64,000 nucleotides of DNA from Actinomyces slackii (lineage in GTDB: Bacteria; Actinomycetota; Actinomycetes; Actinomycetales; Actinomycetaceae): NCBI RefSeq assembly GCF_900637295.1, contig NZ_LR134363.1, positions 2,728,001-2,792,000 of the forward strand, in the 5' to 3' direction. Of this stretch, positions 36,043 through 46,471 are shown piece after piece. A program made the position numbers and the translations under genes. The number at the start of each line of letters is the position of its first letter. Within the stretch, counting starts at the first letter, position 1. Below the pieces are notes generated by a model. That model was not told the origin of the DNA. It saw nothing but the letters and a program-made list of their open reading frames with translations, and did not search any database.

Positions 36043-37232
36043 TGAGCGCCTCTCCCGCCCAGGCGGCCCTGCCTGCGAGCTGGTCGGACTGGCGCCGGAC
36101 CTGGCCCGGCACGGCCGGCTGGCTCGGCGTCGATGTGCAGTCCTCGATCTGGGTCGGCTTCCTCATCCCGGCGATCGCCTTCCTCCTGCGCTCCCCGGCC
36201 CCGGCGTGGGCGAAGGCCCTGGGGACCGTGGGGATGACGGCCTTCGGGGTCATCTACGTCATCGAGATCAGCCTCATCGCCAAGCGCGTGGACTTCACCC
36301 GCGTGCCGACCCAGTCCACGCTGCGCCAGGAGATGACCCCTGCGCTGCGACCACTTGTCCTGCTGGCTATCTGCGCGGGAACGGCGATCATCGCGATCAC
36401 CTGGTACTTCCCCCTGTTTCTGCCCTATTTCTGCGCAGTCCTCCTGTTCACCATGAGGCTGCGCACCGGCCTGATGGCCTGCGCGTGCCTGTGCGTGACC
36501 AGCCTGCTCATCGCCCTGCCCGCCACCGCGCTCGACCCCCAGTTCCTGTACTTCACGCTGGGATGCCTTCTCTCCTCGGGCTTCGTGGTCATCTCCCGCT
36601 TCTACGCCGAGCAGGAGGAGCAGCGCGCCCACCGGGCCCGGGAGCAGGCAGCGATGGCGGAGCGCGAGGAGATCAGTCGGGATGTGCATGACCTGCTCGG
36701 GCACTCCCTGACGGTGCTCACCCTCAAGGCTGAGGTGGCCCAGAGGCTCCTGCGGCAGGACCCGCAGGCCGCCGAGCGGGAGCTGGCCGAGGTCATCGAG
36801 CTCTCGCGGGCCGCCCTGGCGGATGTGCGGGCCACTGTGACCCGGCTGCGCACACCGGACCTGGCCAGCCAGGTCGAGTCCTCCCGAACGGCCTTCGCCG
36901 CCGCTCAGATCGACGCGGAGATCTCCGGTGCCGCTGGGGATGTCCCCCTGGGCCAGCGCGAGCTGATCTCCTGGGCGCTGCGGGAGGCCACGACGAATAT
37001 TCTGCGGCACGCCGCGGCCACGCGCGTGCGGGTGGCCATCGCTGCGGGCCGCCTTCACGTGGTTGACAATGGTCGTGGCCTGGCGGGGGCGCCTGCCGGC
37101 AATGGGCTGCGGGGCCTGCGCCGGCGCGTGGAGGCGGCCGGCGGCCGACTGCGGGTGGTCAGTCCTGCGCCGTCGGGCCCCGGCATGGGCGGGCAGGAGG
37201 GCCCGGGCACGGAGATGGAGGTTGTGCTGTGA
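36042..37232 (+). CDS. DesK-like sensor histidine kinase
   Basis: 396 aa: about five membrane spans in residues 30-185, then a HisKA_3 dimerisation helix with the phosphoacceptor H216 in SRDVHDLLGHSL, and an HATPase domain with N-box-like EATTNILRHAAATRV and GRGLAG...GNGLRGLRRR. The small membrane sensor and lack of an extracellular domain point to a membrane- or lipid-sensing input. It overlaps the permease gene and the regulator gene by a few bases each. Its regulator is interrupted, so signalling from this kinase is probably broken here. Confidence 0.9.
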   Translation: MSASPAQAALPASWSDWRRTWPGTAGWLGVDVQSSIWVGFLIPAIAFLLRSPAPAWAKALGTVGMTAFGVIYVIEISLIAKRVDFTRVPTQSTLRQEMTPALRPLVLLAICAGTAIIAITWYFPLFLPYFCAVLLFTMRLRTGLMACACLCVTSLLIALPATALDPQFLYFTLGCLLSSGFVVISRFYAEQEEQRAHRAREQAAMAEREEISRDVHDLLGHSLTVLTLKAEVAQRLLRQDPQAAERELAEVIELSRAALADVRATVTRLRTPDLASQVESSRTAFAAAQIDAEISGAAGDVPLGQRELISWALREATTNILRHAAATRVRVAIAAGRLHVVDNGRGLAGAPAGNGLRGLRRRVEAAGGRLRVVSPAPSGPGMGGQEGPGTEMEVVL

Positions 37233-37648
37233 GCGCGAAGAGCACTGGAGGCGGTGTGATCCGCCTGCTCATCGCCGATGACCAGGCGCTGGTGCGCGGG
37301 GCCCTGGCCACGCTGCTGGGGCTGGAGGCCGACCTGGAGGTGGTGGCGCAGGTGGGCACCGGCAGTGCGGTGGTGCCTGCTGCCCGCGAGCAGCGCGCCG
37401 ATGTGGCGCTGCTGGATATCGACATGCCCGACGGCGATGGCCTGGCGGCCGCTGCGGCCCTGACCGCCTCGGGACTGGGGTGCCGCAGCCTCATCGTCAC
37501 GACCTTCGGGCGCCCGGGGTATCTGTCCCGGGCGCTGGAGGCGGGGGCGAGCGGATTCCTGGTCAAGGACACCCCGCCCGAGCAGCTGGCCGACGCCATC
37601 CGCCGCATCCATGGCGGGCTGCGGGTCATCGACCCGACCCTGGCCTAG
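37229..37648 (+). pseudogene. Response regulator, receiver-domain half (interrupted by IS)
   Basis: NarL/DesR-type regulator cut in two. This part (139 codons) holds a complete receiver domain: LLIADDQALVRG (D17, D18), LLDIDMPDGDG (phosphorylated D63), VTTFGRPGYL, VKDTPPEQLADAIRRI. It then meets a TAG inside the CCTAGG hexamer that borders the IS481-type element. The LuxR-type HTH half resumes, in the same frame, at 38754. Starts with GTG overlapping the kinase stop. A free receiver domain without DNA binding would not regulate transcription. Confidence 0.88.
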
Positions 37649-37649
37649 G
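37644..37649. repeat. Target-site copy CCTAGG, left of the IS
   Basis: The hexamer CCTAGG occurs directly next to both element ends (37644-37649 and 38749-38754). IS481 is known to duplicate a 6-bp NCTAGN target, and this fits. Because the hexamer is a palindrome it is both a direct and an inverted repeat. It supplies the TAG stop for both the transposase and the receiver-domain fragment. Confidence 0.85.
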
Positions 37650-38649
37650 TGTACTTCCCCGTGAGGTTGTGTACGCGTTGTGATGGGGTTTGGCCTCCGA
37701 TGCCGGTGTGGGGTCGGTGGTGATTGTAGTGGTGGAGCCAGTCGTTGTAGGCGGCGGCTCGCTCGGCCTCGTTGGTGTAGGGCCTGGCGTAGGCCCACTC
37801 GGTGGCCAGGGTGCGGTTGAAGCGCTCGACCTTGCCGTTGGTCTGGGGGCGGTAGGGGCGGGTGTAGCGGTGCTTGATCCCGGTGTCCTGGAGCAGTTGG
37901 TTGAATGCTGCGGAGCGGTAGCAGGCACCGTTATCGGTCATCACGGCGCTGACACCCACCCCCAGGTCCGCGAAGAACGCGCTGGCGCGCCTCCAGAAGG
38001 CGGTTACGGTCTCCTTGCGCTCATCGTCGAGGATCTCGGAATACGCCACCCGGGAGTAGTCGTCCACGGCGTGGTGGAGGTAGCGGTAGCCGCGTGAGGG
38101 GCTGGCGCCCTTCCTGGCGGCGCGGTCGCGGGCCCGGCCTGAGGATTTGTCGGCCGCCGAGCCGCGCCCGTGGGCTCTCCACCCGCCTCCTTGTGGGATG
38201 CGGCCGAGCTTCTTGATGTCGAGATGCACCAGCTGCCCGGGGCGCTTCTTCTCGTAGCGCGCCGGCGCCGGGCGGCGAACAGGCAGCCCGGTGGCCTGGT
38301 CGATGTGGGCCAGTAGGGGCATGCGGTAGCGCGACAGGACCCGCCCGACTGTGGAGCGGTGCAGATTCAGGTGATAGGCGATCCTGTGCGGTCCCCAGCG
38401 GCGCGTGAATCTCATAGCGATGATCCGCCGCTCGGTCTTGGAGGGCAGGCGCCCCGGCGAGGTGGAGGGTCGACTGGAGCGGTCGATCAGCGCCTCGCCG
38501 GCCCGGTAGCGATCGGCCCATCGCTTGACGGTGGCCGGGCTGACCTGTAGGCGCTCAGCGACTCGCCGCAGCGGCCAGCCCTCCTCGACGACCAGAACAG
38601 CGAGACGTCGACGCCCCTCAGGCGTCAAAGGCGAGTTAGCGTGGACCAT
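37645..38649 (-). CDS. IS481-family transposase
   Basis: 334 aa. An N-terminal HTH (LRRVAERLQVSPATVKRWAD) is followed by an rve/DDE integrase core: HLDIKKLG (first D), MTDNGACYRS (second D) and NGKVERFNRTL (E). The C-terminus has the IS481 pattern YNHHRPHTGIGGQTPSQRV. ATG 38649 is chosen over an upstream in-frame ATG because IS481 transposases begin near here. The stop TAG falls outside the element, in the target hexamer, so termination depends on the insertion site. Confidence 0.93.
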   Translation of the reverse strand: MVHANSPLTPEGRRRLAVLVVEEGWPLRRVAERLQVSPATVKRWADRYRAGEALIDRSSRPSTSPGRLPSKTERRIIAMRFTRRWGPHRIAYHLNLHRSTVGRVLSRYRMPLLAHIDQATGLPVRRPAPARYEKKRPGQLVHLDIKKLGRIPQGGGWRAHGRGSAADKSSGRARDRAARKGASPSRGYRYLHHAVDDYSRVAYSEILDDERKETVTAFWRRASAFFADLGVGVSAVMTDNGACYRSAAFNQLLQDTGIKHRYTRPYRPQTNGKVERFNRTLATEWAYARPYTNEAERAAAYNDWLHHYNHHRPHTGIGGQTPSQRVHNLTGKYT

Positions 38650-38748
38650 GAGGGCCTCCGGTTCAGTGATGCGAGCATTGACAACCCACATCCTGCCGGA
38701 GGCCCTCACTCACCACCCACCCCGTTCACAACCTCCCAAGGAAGTACA
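37650..38748 (-). mobile_element. IS481-family insertion sequence, complete
   Basis: 1,099-bp element with TG...CA ends. The left end TGTACTTCCCCGTGAGGTTG and the right end, read inward, TGTACTTCCTTGGGAGGTTG match at 17 of 20 bases, and the match continues through TGTG/TGTG. Flanked by CCTAGG on both sides. It carries one intact transposase gene on the minus strand. It sits inside the response-regulator gene. Intact ends and frame suggest a recent and possibly still mobile copy. Confidence 0.93.
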
Positions 38749-38759: not shown

Positions 38760-38966
38760 GTGCTGTTGGGCCCCAATCCGCTGACCGACCGGGAGAAGGA
38801 CGTGCTGCGCCTGGCGGCCCGGGGCGACGACGCCCATGGGATCGCGGCGAGCCTGCACCTGGGCGAGGGGACGGTGCGCAACTACCTGTCCAGTGCGATC
38901 GCCAAGACCCACGCCCGCAATCGCACCGAGGCCGCCCGCACCGCCGAGCGCAACGGGTGGCTGTAG
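38760..38966 (+). pseudogene. Response regulator, LuxR-type HTH half (interrupted by IS)
   Basis: Continuation of the regulator begun at 37229. PNPLTDREKDVLRLAA, GIAASLHLGEGTVRNYLSSA and TEAARTAERNGWL make a complete LuxR/NarL HTH. It is in the same frame as the receiver half once the IS and one CCTAGG are removed, but a TAG remains at the junction. A GTG at 38760 could in principle start a 68-aa HTH-only protein; no good ribosome site is seen. Confidence 0.85.
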
Positions 38967-38990
38967 CGCCGGTCGGGTGAGCCGGCGATG

Positions 38991-40019
38991 TCACGGCAGG
39001 GCCTCGAGGTAGTCGCGGTAGGCGGCCAGGGAGTTGTCGGCCATGAGCGCACGGGGCCACAGAACAGCGATGACGAGTCCGAGGAGCTCTGAGTCCTCCA
39101 CGGCCGGGCGAGCCATCGTGTGGGCCGCATCGAAGTACTGGACCGTCGCCTTGGCCCCGAGAATGCTCGTGTAGGTGGCGGCTGTCTCCGAGACGTCGAC
39201 ATGTCGATCGTGCGTGCTCAGCATGAGGAGAACAGGCACCTGTTCGCCGCCCATCGCCACGAGGTCATCGGTGGCATCGGATGCGTAGTTCCGGATCGCA
39301 AAACGCCAGCGATCCTCGGTCAGCGGCTCAGGGTCGCAGGTGGTCGCCCGGTAGGTGTTGTAATCCGCCTTCTGCTTGAGGAGGCGGCGAGTCTGCTCGC
39401 TGCATCGGATCGCCTCATCGCGCTCGGCCTGGCCCGCGCTGTTGTGGTCGAGCTCGGCCAGGAGGTGGTAGCGCCCCTGGCGCAGCCAGTTGATGGCGGG
39501 GTTGAGAGCAATCACCGCAGCGATGTCATCGCGTGAGGCCGCCACCTTGGGGAGCACCCAACCGGCCTGGCTGGCACCCCACAGCACGATGCGCTCGGTC
39601 GGGATGGAGGCTCGCCCACGGGCCCAGTCGATCACCGCGGAGACTTCCGCCGCTCGATCCTCCATGCTCTGGTCGAGCCAGTTCCCGTCCGAACCGGCGA
39701 TGCCGGGCTTGCTCCAGGACAGAGTCGCATACCCGGCATCGGCGGCCACCTCGAACCAGGGGAAGTAGAGCCCGTCGTTGTCCGCATCGATGGGCCCGTC
39801 GCCATGGATGATGACGACGAGACCACGGGGCGGCGTGCCAGTCGGCATGGTGAGCACAGCCTCGAGGCTCTCATCCCCGACGAGTACCTGGAGGTGCTGC
39901 AGACGGAACCGGAAGTCATTGCCAATCAGCGCCACACCGGCCAGGACAGCGACGATGACGCATACGCATACCGCGATGTGGAGCAGGCGCCGACGCCACC
40001 TACCTCTCGCTCTCCTCAC
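38991..40019 (-). CDS. Membrane-anchored or secreted alpha/beta hydrolase
   Basis: 342 aa with an N-terminal hydrophobic segment (about 12-31) and an alpha/beta-hydrolase fold outside the membrane. Catalytic triad candidates: Ser in WGASQAGW (GxSxxG), Asp in STHDRHVD and His in DAAHTMA. HGDGPID resembles the oxyanion-hole region of S9/S33-like esterases and peptidases. Substrate unknown. It is divergent from a PaaX-like regulator, which may control it. The spacer at 40020-40092 is AT-rich compared with its surroundings. Confidence 0.82.
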   Translation of the reverse strand: MRRARGRWRRRLLHIAVCVCVIVAVLAGVALIGNDFRFRLQHLQVLVGDESLEAVLTMPTGTPPRGLVVIIHGDGPIDADNDGLYFPWFEVAADAGYATLSWSKPGIAGSDGNWLDQSMEDRAAEVSAVIDWARGRASIPTERIVLWGASQAGWVLPKVAASRDDIAAVIALNPAINWLRQGRYHLLAELDHNSAGQAERDEAIRCSEQTRRLLKQKADYNTYRATTCDPEPLTEDRWRFAIRNYASDATDDLVAMGGEQVPVLLMLSTHDRHVDVSETAATYTSILGAKATVQYFDAAHTMARPAVEDSELLGLVIAVLWPRALMADNSLAAYRDYLEALP

Positions 40020-40092
40020 GTTCGTAGACTACATGATAGATTAGTGGTGTGCTGCTCGTTGCCTGCAGACGCACACGGAAGGGGACCAGGGC

Positions 40093-40932
40093 ATGGCCAC
40101 TGATTCATCCTCGATCTCGCCGCGCACGATCGTCGAGGCTTTCCTGCCCGCGGACGGCGCGGTTGGGCTGGGGGTCATCTATGACACCGCCAACGCCATG
40201 GGCATCGACGACCAGCCACTGCGCCTGTGCCTGCGGCGCATGGTGTCCGCCGGGCAGATCGAGCAGACGGGTCGGGGGCGCAAGGGCTCGGTCGCGCTCA
40301 CCGACGCCGGCCGGGACCGACTGCGTCGGGACCGCCTCGCTCTGCGCTTGGCCTTCGCACAGGATGAGGGCCTCGTCCCGTGGGATGGGAGCTGGCGGCT
40401 GGTGGCAGTCAGCGCACCGGAGGCCGAGCGATCGATGCGCGACGCCACCCGTCGAATCCTCGTTGACGCCGGTGCGGTCTCGATCTCGACGGGCCTGTTC
40501 ATCAGCCCGCACGACCTGACCGACCTTCTCGACACCGAGCAGCAAAGGCGGATCGTGCCGATCACCGCATCGGACATCAGCATCGGGGGCACGAGTGACC
40601 CTCGCGAGCTGGCGGCCATGCTGTGGCCGCCGGAGCCTCTCCTGGCAGGCTACGAAGACCTTGACCGGGTGCTCTCCAGCCCACCGGCCATAGACCTGGC
40701 GGACGCCGGGGCGATCCTTCGGGCTCAACTCATCCTCGCCGATGCGATCGAACGGGCACTACGACCAGACCCCCTTGTGCCCCTCGAGCTCCGAGAAGCC
40801 GATTGGAAACCCACTCGTCTGCGCCGCGAGTGGCGCAGACGCTGGGACGACCTGACCAACAGACTCCCCGACCGCCTTCTCTACCGGGATTGGCTCCCCT
40901 CCAACCACAGCGACCCGCCACGAATCACGTGA
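40093..40932 (+). CDS. PaaX-family transcriptional regulator
   Basis: 279 aa: an N-terminal winged-helix region (VIYDTANAMGIDDQPLRLCL, then RRMVSAGQIEQTGRGRKGSVALT), a central domain beginning WDGSWRLVAVSAPE typical of PaaX, and a C-terminal PaaX-type helical part (LRREWRRRWDDLTNRLPDRLLYRDWLP in pieces). PaaX itself represses phenylacetate genes in E. coli; no such genes are nearby, so the ligand here is unknown. GGAAGGGGA precedes the ATG. It is divergent from the hydrolase gene. Confidence 0.8.
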   Translation: MATDSSSISPRTIVEAFLPADGAVGLGVIYDTANAMGIDDQPLRLCLRRMVSAGQIEQTGRGRKGSVALTDAGRDRLRRDRLALRLAFAQDEGLVPWDGSWRLVAVSAPEAERSMRDATRRILVDAGAVSISTGLFISPHDLTDLLDTEQQRRIVPITASDISIGGTSDPRELAAMLWPPEPLLAGYEDLDRVLSSPPAIDLADAGAILRAQLILADAIERALRPDPLVPLELREADWKPTRLRREWRRRWDDLTNRLPDRLLYRDWLPSNHSDPPRIT

Positions 40933-41249
40933 GACGCTCCTCGCACGCCGAGAGGCTCACATGCCTCGCGCCGCGCATGACCGAGCGAGCCCGCAACACC
41001 GACCGCCACGGGTGGCTGTAGCGCCAGGCAGGAGAATCGAATACGCCTTGGCTGAGGACGATCATCATGGGAGGCTGTAGGCGCTAACATCCATGGCGTC
41101 CATTGCACCGATGGCATCGGCACCGTGCGAAGCCTCGCCGTCCCTACCGAGAGGCCTCATGGCACCGGCTGGTGCGAGGAATCAAACGTCGTTACTCAGA
41201 TCTCCTCCCGGTAGGCGTCCGGGGCCCGGGGCCAGCGCGAGACCTGGTA
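40933..41249. other. Intergenic region with a second copy of the regulator's 3' end
   Basis: 317 bases without a gene. Positions 41008-41025 repeat exactly the 18 bases at 38953-38970 that encode the end of the LuxR-type regulator (GWL and TAG stop plus flanking bases); the preceding codons, read in that frame, give TERARNTDRHGWL, similar to TEAARTAERNGWL. It looks like the scar of a related regulator gene or of a recombination that brought in the hydrolase-PaaX pair. Confidence 0.5.
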
Positions 41250-41828
41250 TCAGGCGGCTGTGAGCGAGGCCAGGAACTGCTCGCGGAAGCGCGCGAAAGA
41301 GGGTGAGCGTCGTGCAGTGGCATCAAGATCGAGTCTCGAGGAGAACGCGACCTGGTGCCGCGTCTCGGCGTAGTTCTCGATCATCTGCTCTTGGAGCGCT
41401 TCTTTGGCTCCTCGCTTCGCCTCGGGATCCTTGGGGTACGCGGCATCGTCCTTGACAGCTCGGTGATCGCGAAGGGATTCGATCCCAGCCAGGAACCAGG
41501 CCTCGTACTCGCGGACAGCGACAGCGACCACGGCCTCCTGCCCCTCCAGCGCCTCCCGCGTGGCCTTCACACACTGCTGCGGATCATCGTCGTCCGAGTC
41601 GTAGAGAACGACAACTACGCCAATCCCTCCCCGCTGATTGATATTCGCCCACTGCATCCTCACAGCATCCCGAACCTTGGTGGAGCGCATATGGTCACGC
41701 CCCAGTCGAAAAGGCTCGGCCACCTGAGAATCGAAGATACCCGCCTCGTTTGTGATTCGGCGCAGCAACTCGGGGAGCGCCTTGACCTCACCATGACCCT
41801 CGACAACGGAGGCAACGATCCTGGTCAT
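41250..41828 (-). CDS. DUF4276 TOPRIM-like protein, partner of the AAA ATPase
   Basis: 192 aa. The N-terminus has VVEGHGEVKALPELL (E10, E14) and VVVVLYDSDDDDPQQC (D77, D79), which fit the Glu and DxD of a TOPRIM metal site. REYEAWFLAGIESL is typical of DUF4276. Its start overlaps the ATPase stop by 4 bases, so the two are made together. TOPRIM nucleases paired with SMC/RecF-like ATPases act in antiphage systems of the OLD and PARIS kinds. That this is a nuclease or defence effector is inference from fold-level motifs and pairing. Confidence 0.78.
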   Translation of the reverse strand: MTRIVASVVEGHGEVKALPELLRRITNEAGIFDSQVAEPFRLGRDHMRSTKVRDAVRMQWANINQRGGIGVVVVLYDSDDDDPQQCVKATREALEGQEAVVAVAVREYEAWFLAGIESLRDHRAVKDDAAYPKDPEAKRGAKEALQEQMIENYAETRHQVAFSSRLDLDATARRSPSFARFREQFLASLTAA

Positions 41829-43012
41829 GACTGAGTGTCCGGTGCGGGCTGGAGCTGGTCGGATCGCAGGAGCTCGCCGGCACTGAAGAGGGACTCCTCC
41901 AGAGCGAGCCTTCCACCCGCATCGAGAGACCCTATGCGTGTGCCACTGGTGTCGGCCCGGACGGCGAAGATCTCGGAGGGCCCCAGATCCCCGGCATCGA
42001 GCAGATCGCCGCTGTGCGTGGTGACGAGGACCTGCCGCATGGTGGAGGCCTCGCGGATGGCGTCGAAGAGCACCCCTGCGGCGGCAGGGTGCAGGGCGGT
42101 CTCGGGCTCTTCAACGATCACCGGGCCGAAGGTGCCGTCGCCACTGGGCGCGAAGAGAGCTGTGAGGATGCCCAGCGCACGGAGCGTGCCGTCGCTCATC
42201 ACCCCAGCGAGAAGTGAGAATGTCCCATCAGACCCCCTCGCCTCTTGTTCAAAATCTAGCGCATAGAATCCACTCACCTCCCTTGGACTGACCTGCCGAA
42301 CACCAGGAACGATGAGTCGCACATACTCGTCGATTAGTTCTTTCCTATCCGGCATGCTCTCTTCAACCCGATGCAGGACAGCGGCAAGATTACGCGCATC
42401 AATCTGAAGCTCACCACTCACCTTATGACGGTCGACCCGACGAATCGAGTCAGGATACGGGGAACTGAGAACTGTGGAAATAAGAGCCCTGCGAACCGCA
42501 GCGAACGCCTCATACCCAGCCAGGGCTCCCAAGATAAGAGAAGCATCCTCGATGGCGGGAACTGGGACAGTCGTACCCTCCACCTCGACCGCGCCTGCGG
42601 AGGAGTCAAAATGAGCACGGATCATACCGCCCGCATCACGCACGACACAGGTCTCTGATCGCACCTTCAAGACAGGCCCGATGGTGGGCGTGATGGTGAA
42701 GGATATCGAATACTCGCATGCACGGCCATCCGGAAGCCCGTCGATATCAACGCCAATGGTGACGCGTGGAGCATCCAATTTTTCTGAGAGCCGCAGGGCG
42801 ATCTGATCCGCTCCTCGCATGTCAGTCGCTTCACGCAGATTCGTTGTCAGCGCGTCCTTGAGGAAGACGAGCGCGTCGAGGATGTTCGACTTCCCAGCAC
42901 CGTTGGGCCCGACAAGCACCGCCAAGTCCCCCAGCGCCAGGTCGCAGGAGCCGACGCTGCGGTAGTTCGCCAGCCGAAGGCGCCGGACACGGGCGCCTGG
43001 AGTCGTCGTCAT
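41825..43012 (-). CDS. AAA family (RecF/OLD-like) ATPase
   Basis: 395 aa. Walker A GPNGAGKSN at 35-43, ABC-like signature MSDGTLRALG near 271-280, Walker B VIVEEPETALHP at 298-309 and switch His in TTHSG (H333). This is the AAA_21 layout: a split ATPase head with a short middle segment instead of long coiled coils. LANYRSVGSCDLAL at the N-terminus is typical of RecF-like heads. The middle (about 42300-42650) is richer in A+T than neighbouring genes, consistent with horizontal transfer. Coupled by ATGA to the DUF4276 gene. Confidence 0.88.
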   Translation of the reverse strand: MTTTPGARVRRLRLANYRSVGSCDLALGDLAVLVGPNGAGKSNILDALVFLKDALTTNLREATDMRGADQIALRLSEKLDAPRVTIGVDIDGLPDGRACEYSISFTITPTIGPVLKVRSETCVVRDAGGMIRAHFDSSAGAVEVEGTTVPVPAIEDASLILGALAGYEAFAAVRRALISTVLSSPYPDSIRRVDRHKVSGELQIDARNLAAVLHRVEESMPDRKELIDEYVRLIVPGVRQVSPREVSGFYALDFEQEARGSDGTFSLLAGVMSDGTLRALGILTALFAPSGDGTFGPVIVEEPETALHPAAAGVLFDAIREASTMRQVLVTTHSGDLLDAGDLGPSEIFAVRADTSGTRIGSLDAGGRLALEESLFSAGELLRSDQLQPAPDTQS

Positions 43013-43194
43013 GGCCTCATCCTATCGGGCCTCACAGGCCGTCCGCCGGAGTCGCCCGCGAGCCAACGCGACCTGGCACAGCACTGGATCCCAGCGCGCC
43101 CAGCGCTGACAGCGGCGCACTGTCAGTCCTGCTGCCGTGGGGCCAAGGCAGGAGGACGCCGACGCCATCATCGAGATCCCGCCGCTCATTCCCT

Positions 43195-43224
43195 CACTCC
43201 AGGAGTGCATGCAGAATACATGCA
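43195..43224. promoter_or_regulatory. Candidate antitoxin operator
   Basis: Two adjacent inverted repeats at the start of the antitoxin gene: CACTCC-A-GGAGTG (43195-43207) and TGCATG-7-CATGCA (43206-43224). The second reaches the chosen ATG, so binding would block translation initiation as well as transcription. RHH antitoxins of the FitA type usually bind such pairs. Confidence 0.5.
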
Positions 43225-43475
43225 TGGTTGCACTGCAGATCCGCAATGTCCCCGACGATGTCCGCGATGCTCTTGCCGAACGGGCGAGGGCGCGTGGGGA
43301 GTCCCTCCAGGCCTATCTTCTGGACGTGGTGACCCGGGAGGCCAGGTGTCATCGCAACGTTGAGCTCCTTGAGAGGATCTCAAAGCGCTTCGAGGGGGGC
43401 TCACAGCAGTCGTCCCCCAACTCTGCGGACATCCTTGAGAGCATCGATCGCGCGCGCCGATTGTGTCCACGGTGA
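43224..43475 (+). CDS. Orphan FitA-like ribbon-helix-helix antitoxin
   Basis: 83 aa. MVALQIRNVPDDVRDALAER is the FitA-type RHH start; the C-terminus ILESIDRARRLCPR should bind a PIN toxin. No toxin gene follows: instead the stop codon lies inside the left arm of a 122-bp palindromic element, and the last residues (LCPR) are partly encoded by it. It looks like an antitoxin that lost its FitB partner. ATG 43209, five codons upstream, is closer to an AGGAG but adds residues not typical of the family. Confidence 0.75.
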   Translation: MVALQIRNVPDDVRDALAERARARGESLQAYLLDVVTREARCHRNVELLERISKRFEGGSQQSSPNSADILESIDRARRLCPR

Positions 43476-43585
43476 ACAACTTTAGCCGCCTCCGGCCAGG
43501 CACTCTCCACGAGAAACATGCTCTGACCTGCGTATTTGTCATTGCGGCGGGAGGCGGAGAATCTTAAAGTTGTTCACCGTGGACA
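43464..43585. mobile_element. 122-bp palindromic element (MITE-like or IS-end remnant)
   Basis: Perfect 21-bp terminal inverted repeats: 43464-43484 begins TGTCCACGGTGAACAAC, and 43565-43585 is its exact reverse complement. The ends are TG...CA. Inner GCCGCCTCC/GGGAGGCGG segments extend the pairing with a gap. The central 80 bases have no coding potential. Both flanking genes end inside its arms: the antitoxin TGA at 43473-43475 and the amidohydrolase TAA at 43564-43566. No clear target duplication is seen. It may be a miniature element or the joined ends of a deleted insertion sequence that took the toxin gene with it. Confidence 0.6.
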
Positions 43586-44610
43586 AAAGCGTCCAGCAGG
43601 GCGGTGAGGTCCTCGGCGGGATCGCGGGGGTAGATGACGGGCGCACTGACCTCACCACTGCCATCACCCTCCGGCTCGAGGAACTCGCGGGCGCTGGAGG
43701 TGGCCAGGCGCAGGATCTCGGCGTCCGGCAGGCCGGCCCGGCGCCAGGCCAGCAGCTCATGCGGGAGCAGGTCGTGGGGCAGTGAGCCCCCGGCATCCGA
43801 GCCGGGCAGCAGCCGCACCCCGGCGGCATGCATCGCGGCGACCTGCTCGTCATGAGCCGCATGCAGGGCGGTGACCGTGGCCGCGTAGACGGGGTACCTC
43901 TTCGCCTGGTGGGCGAAGGCCGGGAAGTTGTCTACCTGCAGGAGGGTCGGGGTCACGGCGATGCCTCGGGCCGCGATCTCGGCGATCTCCTCCGGACCGG
44001 CGCCCGTGGCATGCTCCAGGCAGTCCACGCCGGCCTCGATGAGCGGGCCCAGGGCCGCCCGGCTGAAGGTGTGTGCCGTGACCCGCGCGCCGTTCTCATG
44101 CGCGGCGGCCACAGCATCAACCAGGACCTCGGCCGGCCACAGCGGCGCGATATCGGCCTCGGCCCCGGCGGAGCGGTCGATCCAGTCGGCGACGATCTTG
44201 ACCCATCCATCCCCGGCCCGCGCCTGGCGCGCCACCTCCTTGGGCAGGTCCCCGGGCGAGTCCAGCTCCAGGGCGAAGCCGGGCAGGTAGCGCCTGGGGC
44301 GGGCCAGATGCCGACCGGAGCGGATGATGCGCGGCAGGATCGCGGGCTCCGCGCCGTCAGCGCGCTCAGCGCTGAGCGCCTCATCGATCCGCGCGTCGAT
44401 CCAGTGCGTATCCGTCGGCGCCCCGCAGTCGCGGATGAGGCCGATCCCCGCCCGGGCTGCGGCTCTGACCTGGGCCATCGCCGTCGCGCGGTCAACACCT
44501 CCACCGGGCCCCAGCCCGATATGGCAGTGCGCGTCGACCAGCCCGCCGGGGATGACGAAGCCGTCCCCGGCTGGCACCGTCACGCCCTGAGCGGGCCCGG
44601 TAGCCCTCAC
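43564..44610 (-). CDS. Amidohydrolase, apparently short at both ends
   Basis: 348 aa of the imidazolonepropionase-like amidohydrolase group: metal HxH in VDAHCHIGLG near residue 28, carbamylated-Lys region GWVKIVADWID, metal His in AHTFSRAA and CLEHATG, and Asp in LLPGSDAGG. Most relatives have a beta-sandwich segment of about 45-50 residues before HxH, whereas only about 27 residues fit between this GTG and that motif. The last codons, encoding VHGEQL, lie inside the palindromic element. It follows ffh by 14 bases, its usual neighbour in related genomes. Activity is uncertain. Confidence 0.8.
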   Translation of the reverse strand: MRATGPAQGVTVPAGDGFVIPGGLVDAHCHIGLGPGGGVDRATAMAQVRAAARAGIGLIRDCGAPTDTHWIDARIDEALSAERADGAEPAILPRIIRSGRHLARPRRYLPGFALELDSPGDLPKEVARQARAGDGWVKIVADWIDRSAGAEADIAPLWPAEVLVDAVAAAHENGARVTAHTFSRAALGPLIEAGVDCLEHATGAGPEEIAEIAARGIAVTPTLLQVDNFPAFAHQAKRYPVYAATVTALHAAHDEQVAAMHAAGVRLLPGSDAGGSLPHDLLPHELLAWRRAGLPDAEILRLATSSAREFLEPEGDGSGEVSAPVIYPRDPAEDLTALLDAFVHGEQL

Positions 44611-44624
44611 GTCCTGCCGGGCCC

Positions 44625-46286
44625 TCAGATCCCCAGGTGCCGGCGCAGGTCCTCGGGAAGGGCCGCCATGGCGTCGGCGACCTCATCGCCACTGGGCTGG
44701 GCCTGCTGCGGGGCGGCCTGCTGGCCCTCGGGCATGATCCCGTAGGAGCCGCCCAGGCCGAAGGCCGATCCGGCCGCCGGCGCCGCGGGCGCCTCCTGCT
44801 CGGCCCTGGCGGCGGCCTCCTTGGCCTGGCGCGCCGCCTTGGCGGGGTTGCCCGAGCGCCCCTTCTTGCCGCCCTTGCCCTTCTTCTTGGCCTTGGGGGC
44901 CTGGCGAGCCTTGGAGTGCTTGCCCATGCCCGGCAGGGACCCCATGCCGGGCATCCCTCCCCCGGGCCCGCCCGGGCCGCCCATTCCGCCGGAGGCCATG
45001 GCCTCCATCATCTTCTTGGCCTGCTCGAAGCGATCGACCAGCTCGTTGACCGCCTGGACGGTGGTTCCCGAGCCCTTGGCGATGCGGGAGCGGCGCGAGC
45101 CGTTGAGGATGGACAGGTCCTTGCGCTCGGCCGGGGTCATGGAGCAGACGATGGCCTCGATACGGTCCACCTCGCGCTCATCGAAGTTCTCCAGGGCGTC
45201 GCGCATCTGGCCCATGCCGGGCATCATGCCCAGGAGCTTCTTCATCGAGCCCATCTTGCGGATCTGGCGCAGCTGGCCCAGGAAGTCCTCGAGGGTGAAC
45301 TCGCCCTTGGCGAGCTTGGCGGCGGCATCCTCCGCCTCCTGGCGGTCCATGGTGCGCTCGGCCTGCTCGATGAGGGTCAGCAGGTCGCCCATGTCCAGGA
45401 TGCGACTGGCCATGCGGTCGGCGTGGAAGCGCTCGAAGTCCCCCAGCCCCTCACCGGTGGAGGAGAAGAGCACCGGGGCCCCGGTGACCCCGCGCACCGA
45501 CAGCGCCGCACCACCGCGCGCGTCGCCGTCGAGCTTGGACAGGACCACGCCGGTGAAGCCCACGCCGTCGCGGAAGGCCACCGAGGTGTTGACGGCGTCC
45601 TGACCCACCATGGCGTCCAGGACGAAGAGGATCTCGTGGGGGGAGACCGCGTCGCGGATGCGGATGGCCTGGTCCATCATCTCGGCGTCAACGCCCAGGC
45701 GCCCGGCGGTGTCCACCACGACGACGTCATAGCCGTTGGCCCGGCCGTGCTCCGCGCCGCTGCGGGCCACCGCCACCGGGTCGCCCACGCCGTTGCCGGG
45801 CTCGGGGGCCCACACATGCACCCCGGCGCGCTCGGCCACCACGCCGAGCTGGGTGACCGCATTGGGGCGCTGCAGGTCGGAGGCCACGAGCAGGACGCGC
45901 TTGCCCTGGTCGCGCAGCCACCGGCCGAGCTTGCCGGCCAGGGTGGTCTTGCCGGCGCCCTGGAGGCCGGCGAGCATGATGATGGTCGGCCCGCTGGGCG
46001 CCCAGTTGATCTCGCGGGTGGCCCCGCCCAGGACCTCGATGAGCTCCTCGTTGACGATCTTGACGACCTGCTGGCCGGGATTGAGCACCTGGGAGCGGGC
46101 CGCATCGGTGGCCTTGTCGCGCACAGCGGCGGTGAAGGCGCGCACCACGGGAAGGGCGACGTCAGCCTCCAGAAGGGCACGGCGGATCTCGGTGACCGTC
46201 GCGTCGACGTCGGCCTCGGTGAGGCGTCCCTTGCCGCGCAACTGGTTGAAGGAGGCTGTGAGCCGGTCGGAGAGGTTGCCGAACAC
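44625..46286 (-). CDS. ffh: Signal recognition particle protein Ffh
   Basis: 553 aa SRP GTPase that binds signal peptides and 4.5S RNA and docks on FtsY. NG domain: GLQGAGKTTLAGKLG, DTAGRLGVD, TKLDG-type SKLDGDARGG and GEGLGDFERF. The M domain contains the Met-rich SMKKLLGMMPGMG and SRRSRIAKGSG. GTG at 46284-46286 is chosen since VFGNLSDRL is the family start. A long Gly/Met/Lys-rich and then Gln/Ala/Pro-rich tail ends the protein. Confidence 0.96.
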   Translation of the reverse strand: MFGNLSDRLTASFNQLRGKGRLTEADVDATVTEIRRALLEADVALPVVRAFTAAVRDKATDAARSQVLNPGQQVVKIVNEELIEVLGGATREINWAPSGPTIIMLAGLQGAGKTTLAGKLGRWLRDQGKRVLLVASDLQRPNAVTQLGVVAERAGVHVWAPEPGNGVGDPVAVARSGAEHGRANGYDVVVVDTAGRLGVDAEMMDQAIRIRDAVSPHEILFVLDAMVGQDAVNTSVAFRDGVGFTGVVLSKLDGDARGGAALSVRGVTGAPVLFSSTGEGLGDFERFHADRMASRILDMGDLLTLIEQAERTMDRQEAEDAAAKLAKGEFTLEDFLGQLRQIRKMGSMKKLLGMMPGMGQMRDALENFDEREVDRIEAIVCSMTPAERKDLSILNGSRRSRIAKGSGTTVQAVNELVDRFEQAKKMMEAMASGGMGGPGGPGGGMPGMGSLPGMGKHSKARQAPKAKKKGKGGKKGRSGNPAKAARQAKEAAARAEQEAPAAPAAGSAFGLGGSYGIMPEGQQAAPQQAQPSGDEVADAMAALPEDLRRHLGI

Positions 46287-46471
46287 GCGGTGTCCTTCCT
46301 CGGGCGCCCGTGGCGCCGGGTGATAGGTGACAGCGCCCGACGGCGTGGACGGCGGTGGTGCGCCCGCCGTGGGCATGGCTGCTGCTCAGGATACCGGTGA
46401 GGGACGGCCCGTCCCCACTTCGCGGCGTGCGCCCCCTCACGCCGAGCGGCTCACCGCTGACGCCGGCGGGC

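Follow-up and report, generated by a model that had tools for sequence, protein, structure and literature searches.

OLD nucleases of classes 1 to 3 hold an ATPase and a Toprim domain on a single polypeptide. The two-gene PARIS system (AriA-AriB) has been proposed as a fourth class (PMC10568477). AriA of PARIS responds to a phage protein by activating AriB, a Toprim tRNase (PMC12409363; PMC9122126); removing either gene is non-toxic, and the system is detected as a DUF4435 effector with an AAA_15/AAA_21 ATPase as neighbour (PMC9122126). Operons of TOPRIM-linked OLD-ABC proteins, as a class, trace to Krishnan 2020 according to PMC12839542. Several Hma-embedded candidates (HEC), including HEC-06, have antiviral activity according to PMC12988326, which cites Payne 2024. 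The cited statements are as given in excerpts of the papers. Here, we analyse a window of 64,000 nucleotides from Actinomyces slackii (contig NZ_LR134363.1, positions 2,728,001 to 2,792,000; the host genome is one contig of 3.22 Mb) and show that it holds a further copy of the catalogued candidate defence system HEC-01, made of an OLD/Rad50-like ABC ATPase (HEC-01A, hereafter A) and a predicted Toprim-like nuclease of family DUF4276 (HEC-01B, hereafter B).

A further copy of HEC-01

The TGA stop of the ATPase gene sits within the ATGA that opens the DUF4276 open reading frame (ORF). In Pfam, A matches AAA_21 with 91.4 bits (cut-off 27) and AAA_15 with 65 bits (cut-off 32.1), whereas B matches PF14103 (DUF4276) with 64 bits (cut-off 30.2). 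The two-gene, translationally coupled module put forward by the original prediction, which was made from the letters of the window, is thus present as described. PADLOC-DB 2.0.0 has a model for each protein: PDLC04178 (HEC-01A) matches the ATPase at 4.1e-120 over residues 1-393 and PDLC04196 (HEC-01B) matches the DUF4276 protein at 5.6e-57 over residues 1-189. With both models matched near full length by adjacent genes, we found no difference from the catalogued system.

The original prediction had also suggested that the pairing might be unrecorded. This part does not hold: since PADLOC-DB models both proteins and TOPRIM-linked OLD-ABC operons were described before (excerpt of PMC12839542), the kind is already known. 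HEC-01 also appears as an annotation within a list in the excerpted genome paper of Desulfovibrio piger (PMC12724379). DUF4276 is named in no paper of the literature searched, a search that mostly left subscription papers and bioRxiv preprints outside. The founding preprint of HEC-01 is reportedly Payne 2024. The present analysis adds a putative OLD-type catalytic site for DUF4276, its resemblance to class 2 OLD rather than to AriB, and an insertion hotspot between a response-regulator gene and ffh.

Table 1. Features of the HEC-01 locus in the window. Fractions give the sequences that carry the residue.
Feature	Coordinates	Strand	Basis or remark
HEC-01A, OLD/Rad50-like ABC ATPase, 395 amino acids	41825..43012	-	ORF, Pfam, PADLOC-DB models
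HEC-01B, DUF4276 Toprim-like nuclease (predicted), 192 amino acids	41250..41828	-	ORF, Pfam, PADLOC-DB models
ATGA stop/start overlap (translational coupling)	41825..41828	-	sequence
A, Walker A GPNGAGKS, residues 35-42	42887..42910	-	G35, N37, G40, K41, S42 each 28/28
A, ABC signature-like SDGTLR, residues 273-278	42179..42196	-	D274, G275, R278 28/28; S273, T276, L277 27/28
A, Walker B EEPE, residues 301-304	42101..42112	-	each 28/28; Glu replaces the usual Asp, as in TsOLD
B, E10...E14 (candidate Toprim Glu and Glu+4)	41787..41801	-	each 27/27; cf. BpOLD E400/E404
B, D77-x-D79 (candidate DxD/E)	41592..41600	-	D77 27/27; position 79, 22 D + 5 E; cf. BpOLD D455/D457
B, E107-Y-E109	41502..41510	-	E109 27/27; E107 25/27; cf. 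BpOLD T506/E508
B, K142 (candidate catalytic Lys)	41403..41405	-	27/27 in family alignment; 11/14 in profile-found set; cf. BpOLD K562
Variable insertion site, response-regulator 3' end to ffh 3' end	38967..44624	.	6/33 two-anchor genomes with only 14-25 bp
Response regulator, C-terminal part (left anchor)	38760..38966	+	name assigned from sequence
ffh (right anchor)	44625..46376	-	name assigned from sequence
FitA/VapB-like ribbon-helix-helix antitoxin, probable remnant, toxin gene missing	43224..43458	+	PF22513, 33.5 bits
Mini-element of about 134 bp with terminal inverted repeats, like a miniature inverted-repeat transposable element	43458..43591	.	27-nt arms, 93% complementary
IS481-type transposase	37645-38709		inside response-regulator gene

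Relation to OLD nucleases and PARIS

By profile, A is an OLD-type ABC ATPase: the best of the solved chains is TsOLD (2.7e-21), followed by PtuA (2.4e-16), GajA (1.4e-13) and AriA (4.7e-8). The Walker B Glu that A shares with TsOLD is E276 of that protein (excerpt of PMC7049728). AriA models of PADLOC-DB match A at 3.3e-26, and its structure model was compared by VIA-align. Identity with MAD3 of MADS was rejected, the match reaching 91 bits against a curated cut-off of 420.

For six of the seven known OLD catalytic positions, B has a recognisable counterpart (E10, E14, D77, D or E at 79, E109 and K142), and five of the six are invariant throughout the family alignment. Among these are E10 and D77, correctly numbered in the original prediction. 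Residues were matched to the Toprim set (E, E/D+4, DxD, E, K/R) by order and pattern, not by geometry. The alignments of A and B omit the locus L022, where the ATPase is in two pieces and DUF4276 is cut by the contig end; that of B also omits L027, where the reading frame of DUF4276 is interrupted about 27 residues from its start, and the C-terminal extension of B from L013 was trimmed. A model of B lacking a Toprim fold would also have counted against the original prediction; the structure model (pLDDT, the model's own confidence score, 96.5) is Toprim-like, but with modest scores, while the residue pattern is strong. Its best hit is the nuclease part of class 2 OLD proteins, and a weaker one is the PARIS entry 8ux9_A, which we take as AriB because 8ux9_B is AriA. 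A sequence search of B against the PDB and an hhalign comparison with one GajA gave nothing useful.

The parallel with PARIS and split OLD-type systems drawn by the original prediction is supported; the closest fold is that of class 2 OLD. With class 2 OLD and GajA the pair shares an ABC ATPase and a predicted Toprim domain with a helical part; it differs in being two separate polypeptides and, relative to class 2 OLD, in having a Glu (E107) at the position of BpOLD T506. With PARIS it shares the layout of adjacent genes for an ATPase and a (here predicted) Toprim effector, including an AAA_15/AAA_21 neighbour, but the effector is DUF4276 instead of DUF4435 (PF14491): a Pfam scan of B at 1e-3 gives DUF4276 alone and no AriB model of PADLOC-DB matches up to E = 1, and the identification of B as AriB was rejected. 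No GajB (UvrD-like) gene stands beside the pair in the window, where the neighbours are a PaaX-like gene and the antitoxin gene. Among loci L001-L028, phmmer with four UvrD-like queries from this genome (E 1e-5) found a UvrD-like ORF in L007 alone, 3.5 kb away, and a GajB helicase was discarded as a component of HEC-01. The effector of PtuA in Septu and retrons is PtuB, an HNH nuclease, and not a Toprim protein as predicted for HEC-01B.

Recurrence and genomic context

The original prediction would have lost its ground had the pairing been confined to close relatives. By this preset test it recurs widely. A scan for DUF4276 only gave 26 loci, and an ATPase gene lies upstream on the same strand in every one (in two pieces in L022), with a spacing of -11 to +110 nt. 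We take these loci, from their titles, to represent about nine phyla: Actinomycetota, Verrucomicrobiota, Pseudomonadota, Acidobacteriota, Chloroflexota, Myxococcota, Bacteroidota, Desulfobacterota and Planctomycetota. The overlap is of exactly 4 nt in 13 of 26 pairs (window counted, L027 omitted, start codons of the other pairs picked by script). Among 396 genomes sampled from the phylum, profile search finds PF14103 in 10, the window's included, and the ATPase is upstream in all nine others, six of them over the family cut-off. Together with the 26 loci, this pairing exceeds chance. Within the genus, 9 of 49 genomes have a strong HEC-01B match.

The two partners co-evolve. Distances between copies of A correlate with those between copies of B at r = 0.82 over 27 pairs, a value reached by none of 5000 label permutations (best 0.33). 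Both are also under purifying selection: relative to A. bowdenii, the ratio of nonsynonymous to synonymous divergence (dN/dS) is 0.241/1.179 for A and 0.155/1.256 for B, figures made imprecise by the high dS. Six weak HEC-01B matches in the genus form a second, distant subfamily, five of them two-gene pairs. One such pair is in the window's own genome (G000:C1:1881400-1882979) and has the same catalytic pattern, but position 14 holds D and position 107 holds M. The sixth (L044, 1288-2397, in genome G003), left outside the 14-sequence residue check, consists of one ORF whose matches fall in the N-terminal part of A and in the middle of B; from its sequence it may be a fusion or a decayed remnant.

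Elsewhere the pair lies among defence genes, as the original prediction had proposed to count. In the neighbourhoods of the 22 non-Actinomyces loci (the four Actinomyces loci, L002, L003, L006 and L010, were set aside, as were 6 short ones of 148 selected proteins), two batches of 61 and 81 proteins match 100 and 96 PADLOC families, at 1e-15 and with at most three proteins per family. In comparison, two batches of 78 proteins each, taken from 20 arbitrarily chosen stretches of Actinomycetota DNA, match 0 and 21. The 25 + 25 families listed include type I methyltransferases, DpdF, HmaA, HerA, SIR2, DarG, DrmD, BrxH and SoFic. On a Streptomyces plasmid (NZ_CP107915; L137, 6754-13566), a pair whose two proteins match the HEC-01 models near full length is 1.1 kb from a complete Gabija (GajA 5.7e-189, GajB 1.4e-176), with two small hypothetical genes in between. 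Also near this pair is a gene whose annotation names a Fic-family toxin. Three plasmid records were matched, and in both of the two opened the ATPase is annotated just upstream.

A phage-borne origin was considered and dropped, the sole viral-contig match (L028, 35 residues) having no ATPase. The only match in the phage collection, MT835995.1, is listed as an unverified phage and carries both HEC-01 genes. It is probably bacterial DNA, because it also has an ORF that we take to resemble DapD.

In Actinomyces, the response-regulator and ffh genes converge at their 3' ends around a variable site. We surveyed this site in 46 of the 49 genus genomes (all but G037, G044 and G046), 33 of which have both anchors within the stretch examined; in six of these the anchors are 14-25 bp apart and in one 100 bp. 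All ten genomes with strong similarity to HEC-01A or HEC-01B (nine by B, at 1.3e-25 or better, and G013 by A, at 1.9e-106) carry the matching gene or genes beside the anchors: eight between both and two beside one (G019 is at a contig end, and the response regulator was not found in G028). Three copies are damaged: B has an internal loss and A is whole in G032, A is without B in G013, and both are damaged in G048. Other genomes have at this site a ribbon-helix-helix antitoxin with a PIN protein (vapBC-like, G042), a HepT-MntA-like pair (G007), or DUF4440, B3/4-domain, CAAX-protease and ART-domain proteins. The site is thus a small insertion hotspot, which holds toxin-antitoxin genes, HEC-01 or other accessory genes, or is empty.

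The accessory surroundings named by the original prediction (an IS481-type transposase, a FitA/VapB-like antitoxin without toxin and a mini-element) are all present, and the ATPase indeed has an AT-richer middle, with a GC content of 0.56-0.58 in the intervals covering 42200-42799 versus 0.67-0.77 over ffh (44600-45999). The lone antitoxin is probably the remnant of a vapBC form, because the intact antitoxin and PIN pair occupies the same site in G042; its similarity to G042 stops at the border of the mini-element. The latter has 21 further copies in the genome, of 122-144 nt and 70-79% identical. The transposase splits the response-regulator gene into 37229-37648 and 38760-38966. What we take to be a sensor-kinase-like gene is next to this split regulator; the names of both are our assumption.

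Function and rival readings

Knowledge of OLD, Gabija and PARIS makes a sensor ATPase controlling a Toprim nuclease the likeliest reading of the pair. We regard HEC-01 as probably a two-gene, split OLD-type abortive-infection module. That B is a Toprim nuclease is very probable. That A controls B is quite likely, and so is an anti-phage function of the pair; for the substrate, DNA and RNA have about even chances. A, a Rad50/PtuA-like ABC head, would bind ATP, probably multimerise, and hold or license its small partner, and a stoichiometric complex of the two would fit since they co-evolve and their genes overlap. By analogy with BpOLD, the active site of B might use two metals, E10, D77 and D79 serving one, E14 and E109 the other, with K142 near the scissile phosphate. 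A phage-made signal sensed by A might then free or activate B, which would cut nucleic acid, either DNA, like OLD and Gabija, or tRNA, like PARIS, and stop the infection.

One might instead see in the pair a toxin-antitoxin or addiction module, where B would be a constitutively toxic nuclease neutralised by A and kept by selfish maintenance rather than mainly for phage defence. Two observations favour this: the chromosomal site of HEC-01 also holds VapBC and HepT-MntA, and in two of ten Actinomyces copies an intact A goes with a broken or missing B (G032, G013), the reverse being never clearly seen. Yet, these counts are tiny (2 vs 0), with G019 cut by the contig end and both genes damaged in G048. 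Moreover, single-gene deletions in PARIS are non-toxic (excerpt of PMC9122126), an ABC ATPase of 395 residues is large for an antitoxin, and the neighbourhoods are rich in defence genes. We thus find this alternative unlikely. It is still harder to see HEC-01 as true PARIS, with AriA, a diverged AriB, sensing of anti-restriction proteins and tRNA cutting. The two-gene layout is the same, AriA models match A, and AriB is a Toprim tRNase (excerpt of PMC12409363), but B belongs to DUF4276 with no AriB model match up to E = 1, and the profile of A is nearer OLD, PtuA and GajA than AriA; we hold it very improbable. A housekeeping enzyme of DNA repair or the cell cycle, with a Rad50/RecF-like head, a Toprim partner and no role in immunity, is most improbable given the patchy distribution (9/49 genomes of the genus by strong HEC-01B matches, 10/396 of the phylum by PF14103), the variable site, empty in some relatives, and the persistence of damaged copies.

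Returning to the split OLD-type module, we tentatively suggest, at somewhat less than even chances, that HEC-01 forms a genetic class of its own among OLD nucleases, related to the GajA nuclease but split and without a helicase: a free Toprim-plus-helical effector would be placed under a separate Rad50/PtuA-like ATPase. If so, one catalytic centre, repeatedly separated and connected to new sensors, would be common to fused systems (OLD, Gabija, retron-Eco8) and split ones (PARIS, HEC-01), and the substrate, DNA or tRNA, would be set by the branch of the effector. The putative OLD-type two-metal assignment gives this catalogued candidate six specific residues and a DNA-or-tRNA question, and the response-regulator/ffh site of Actinomyces is a place to seek further defence modules.
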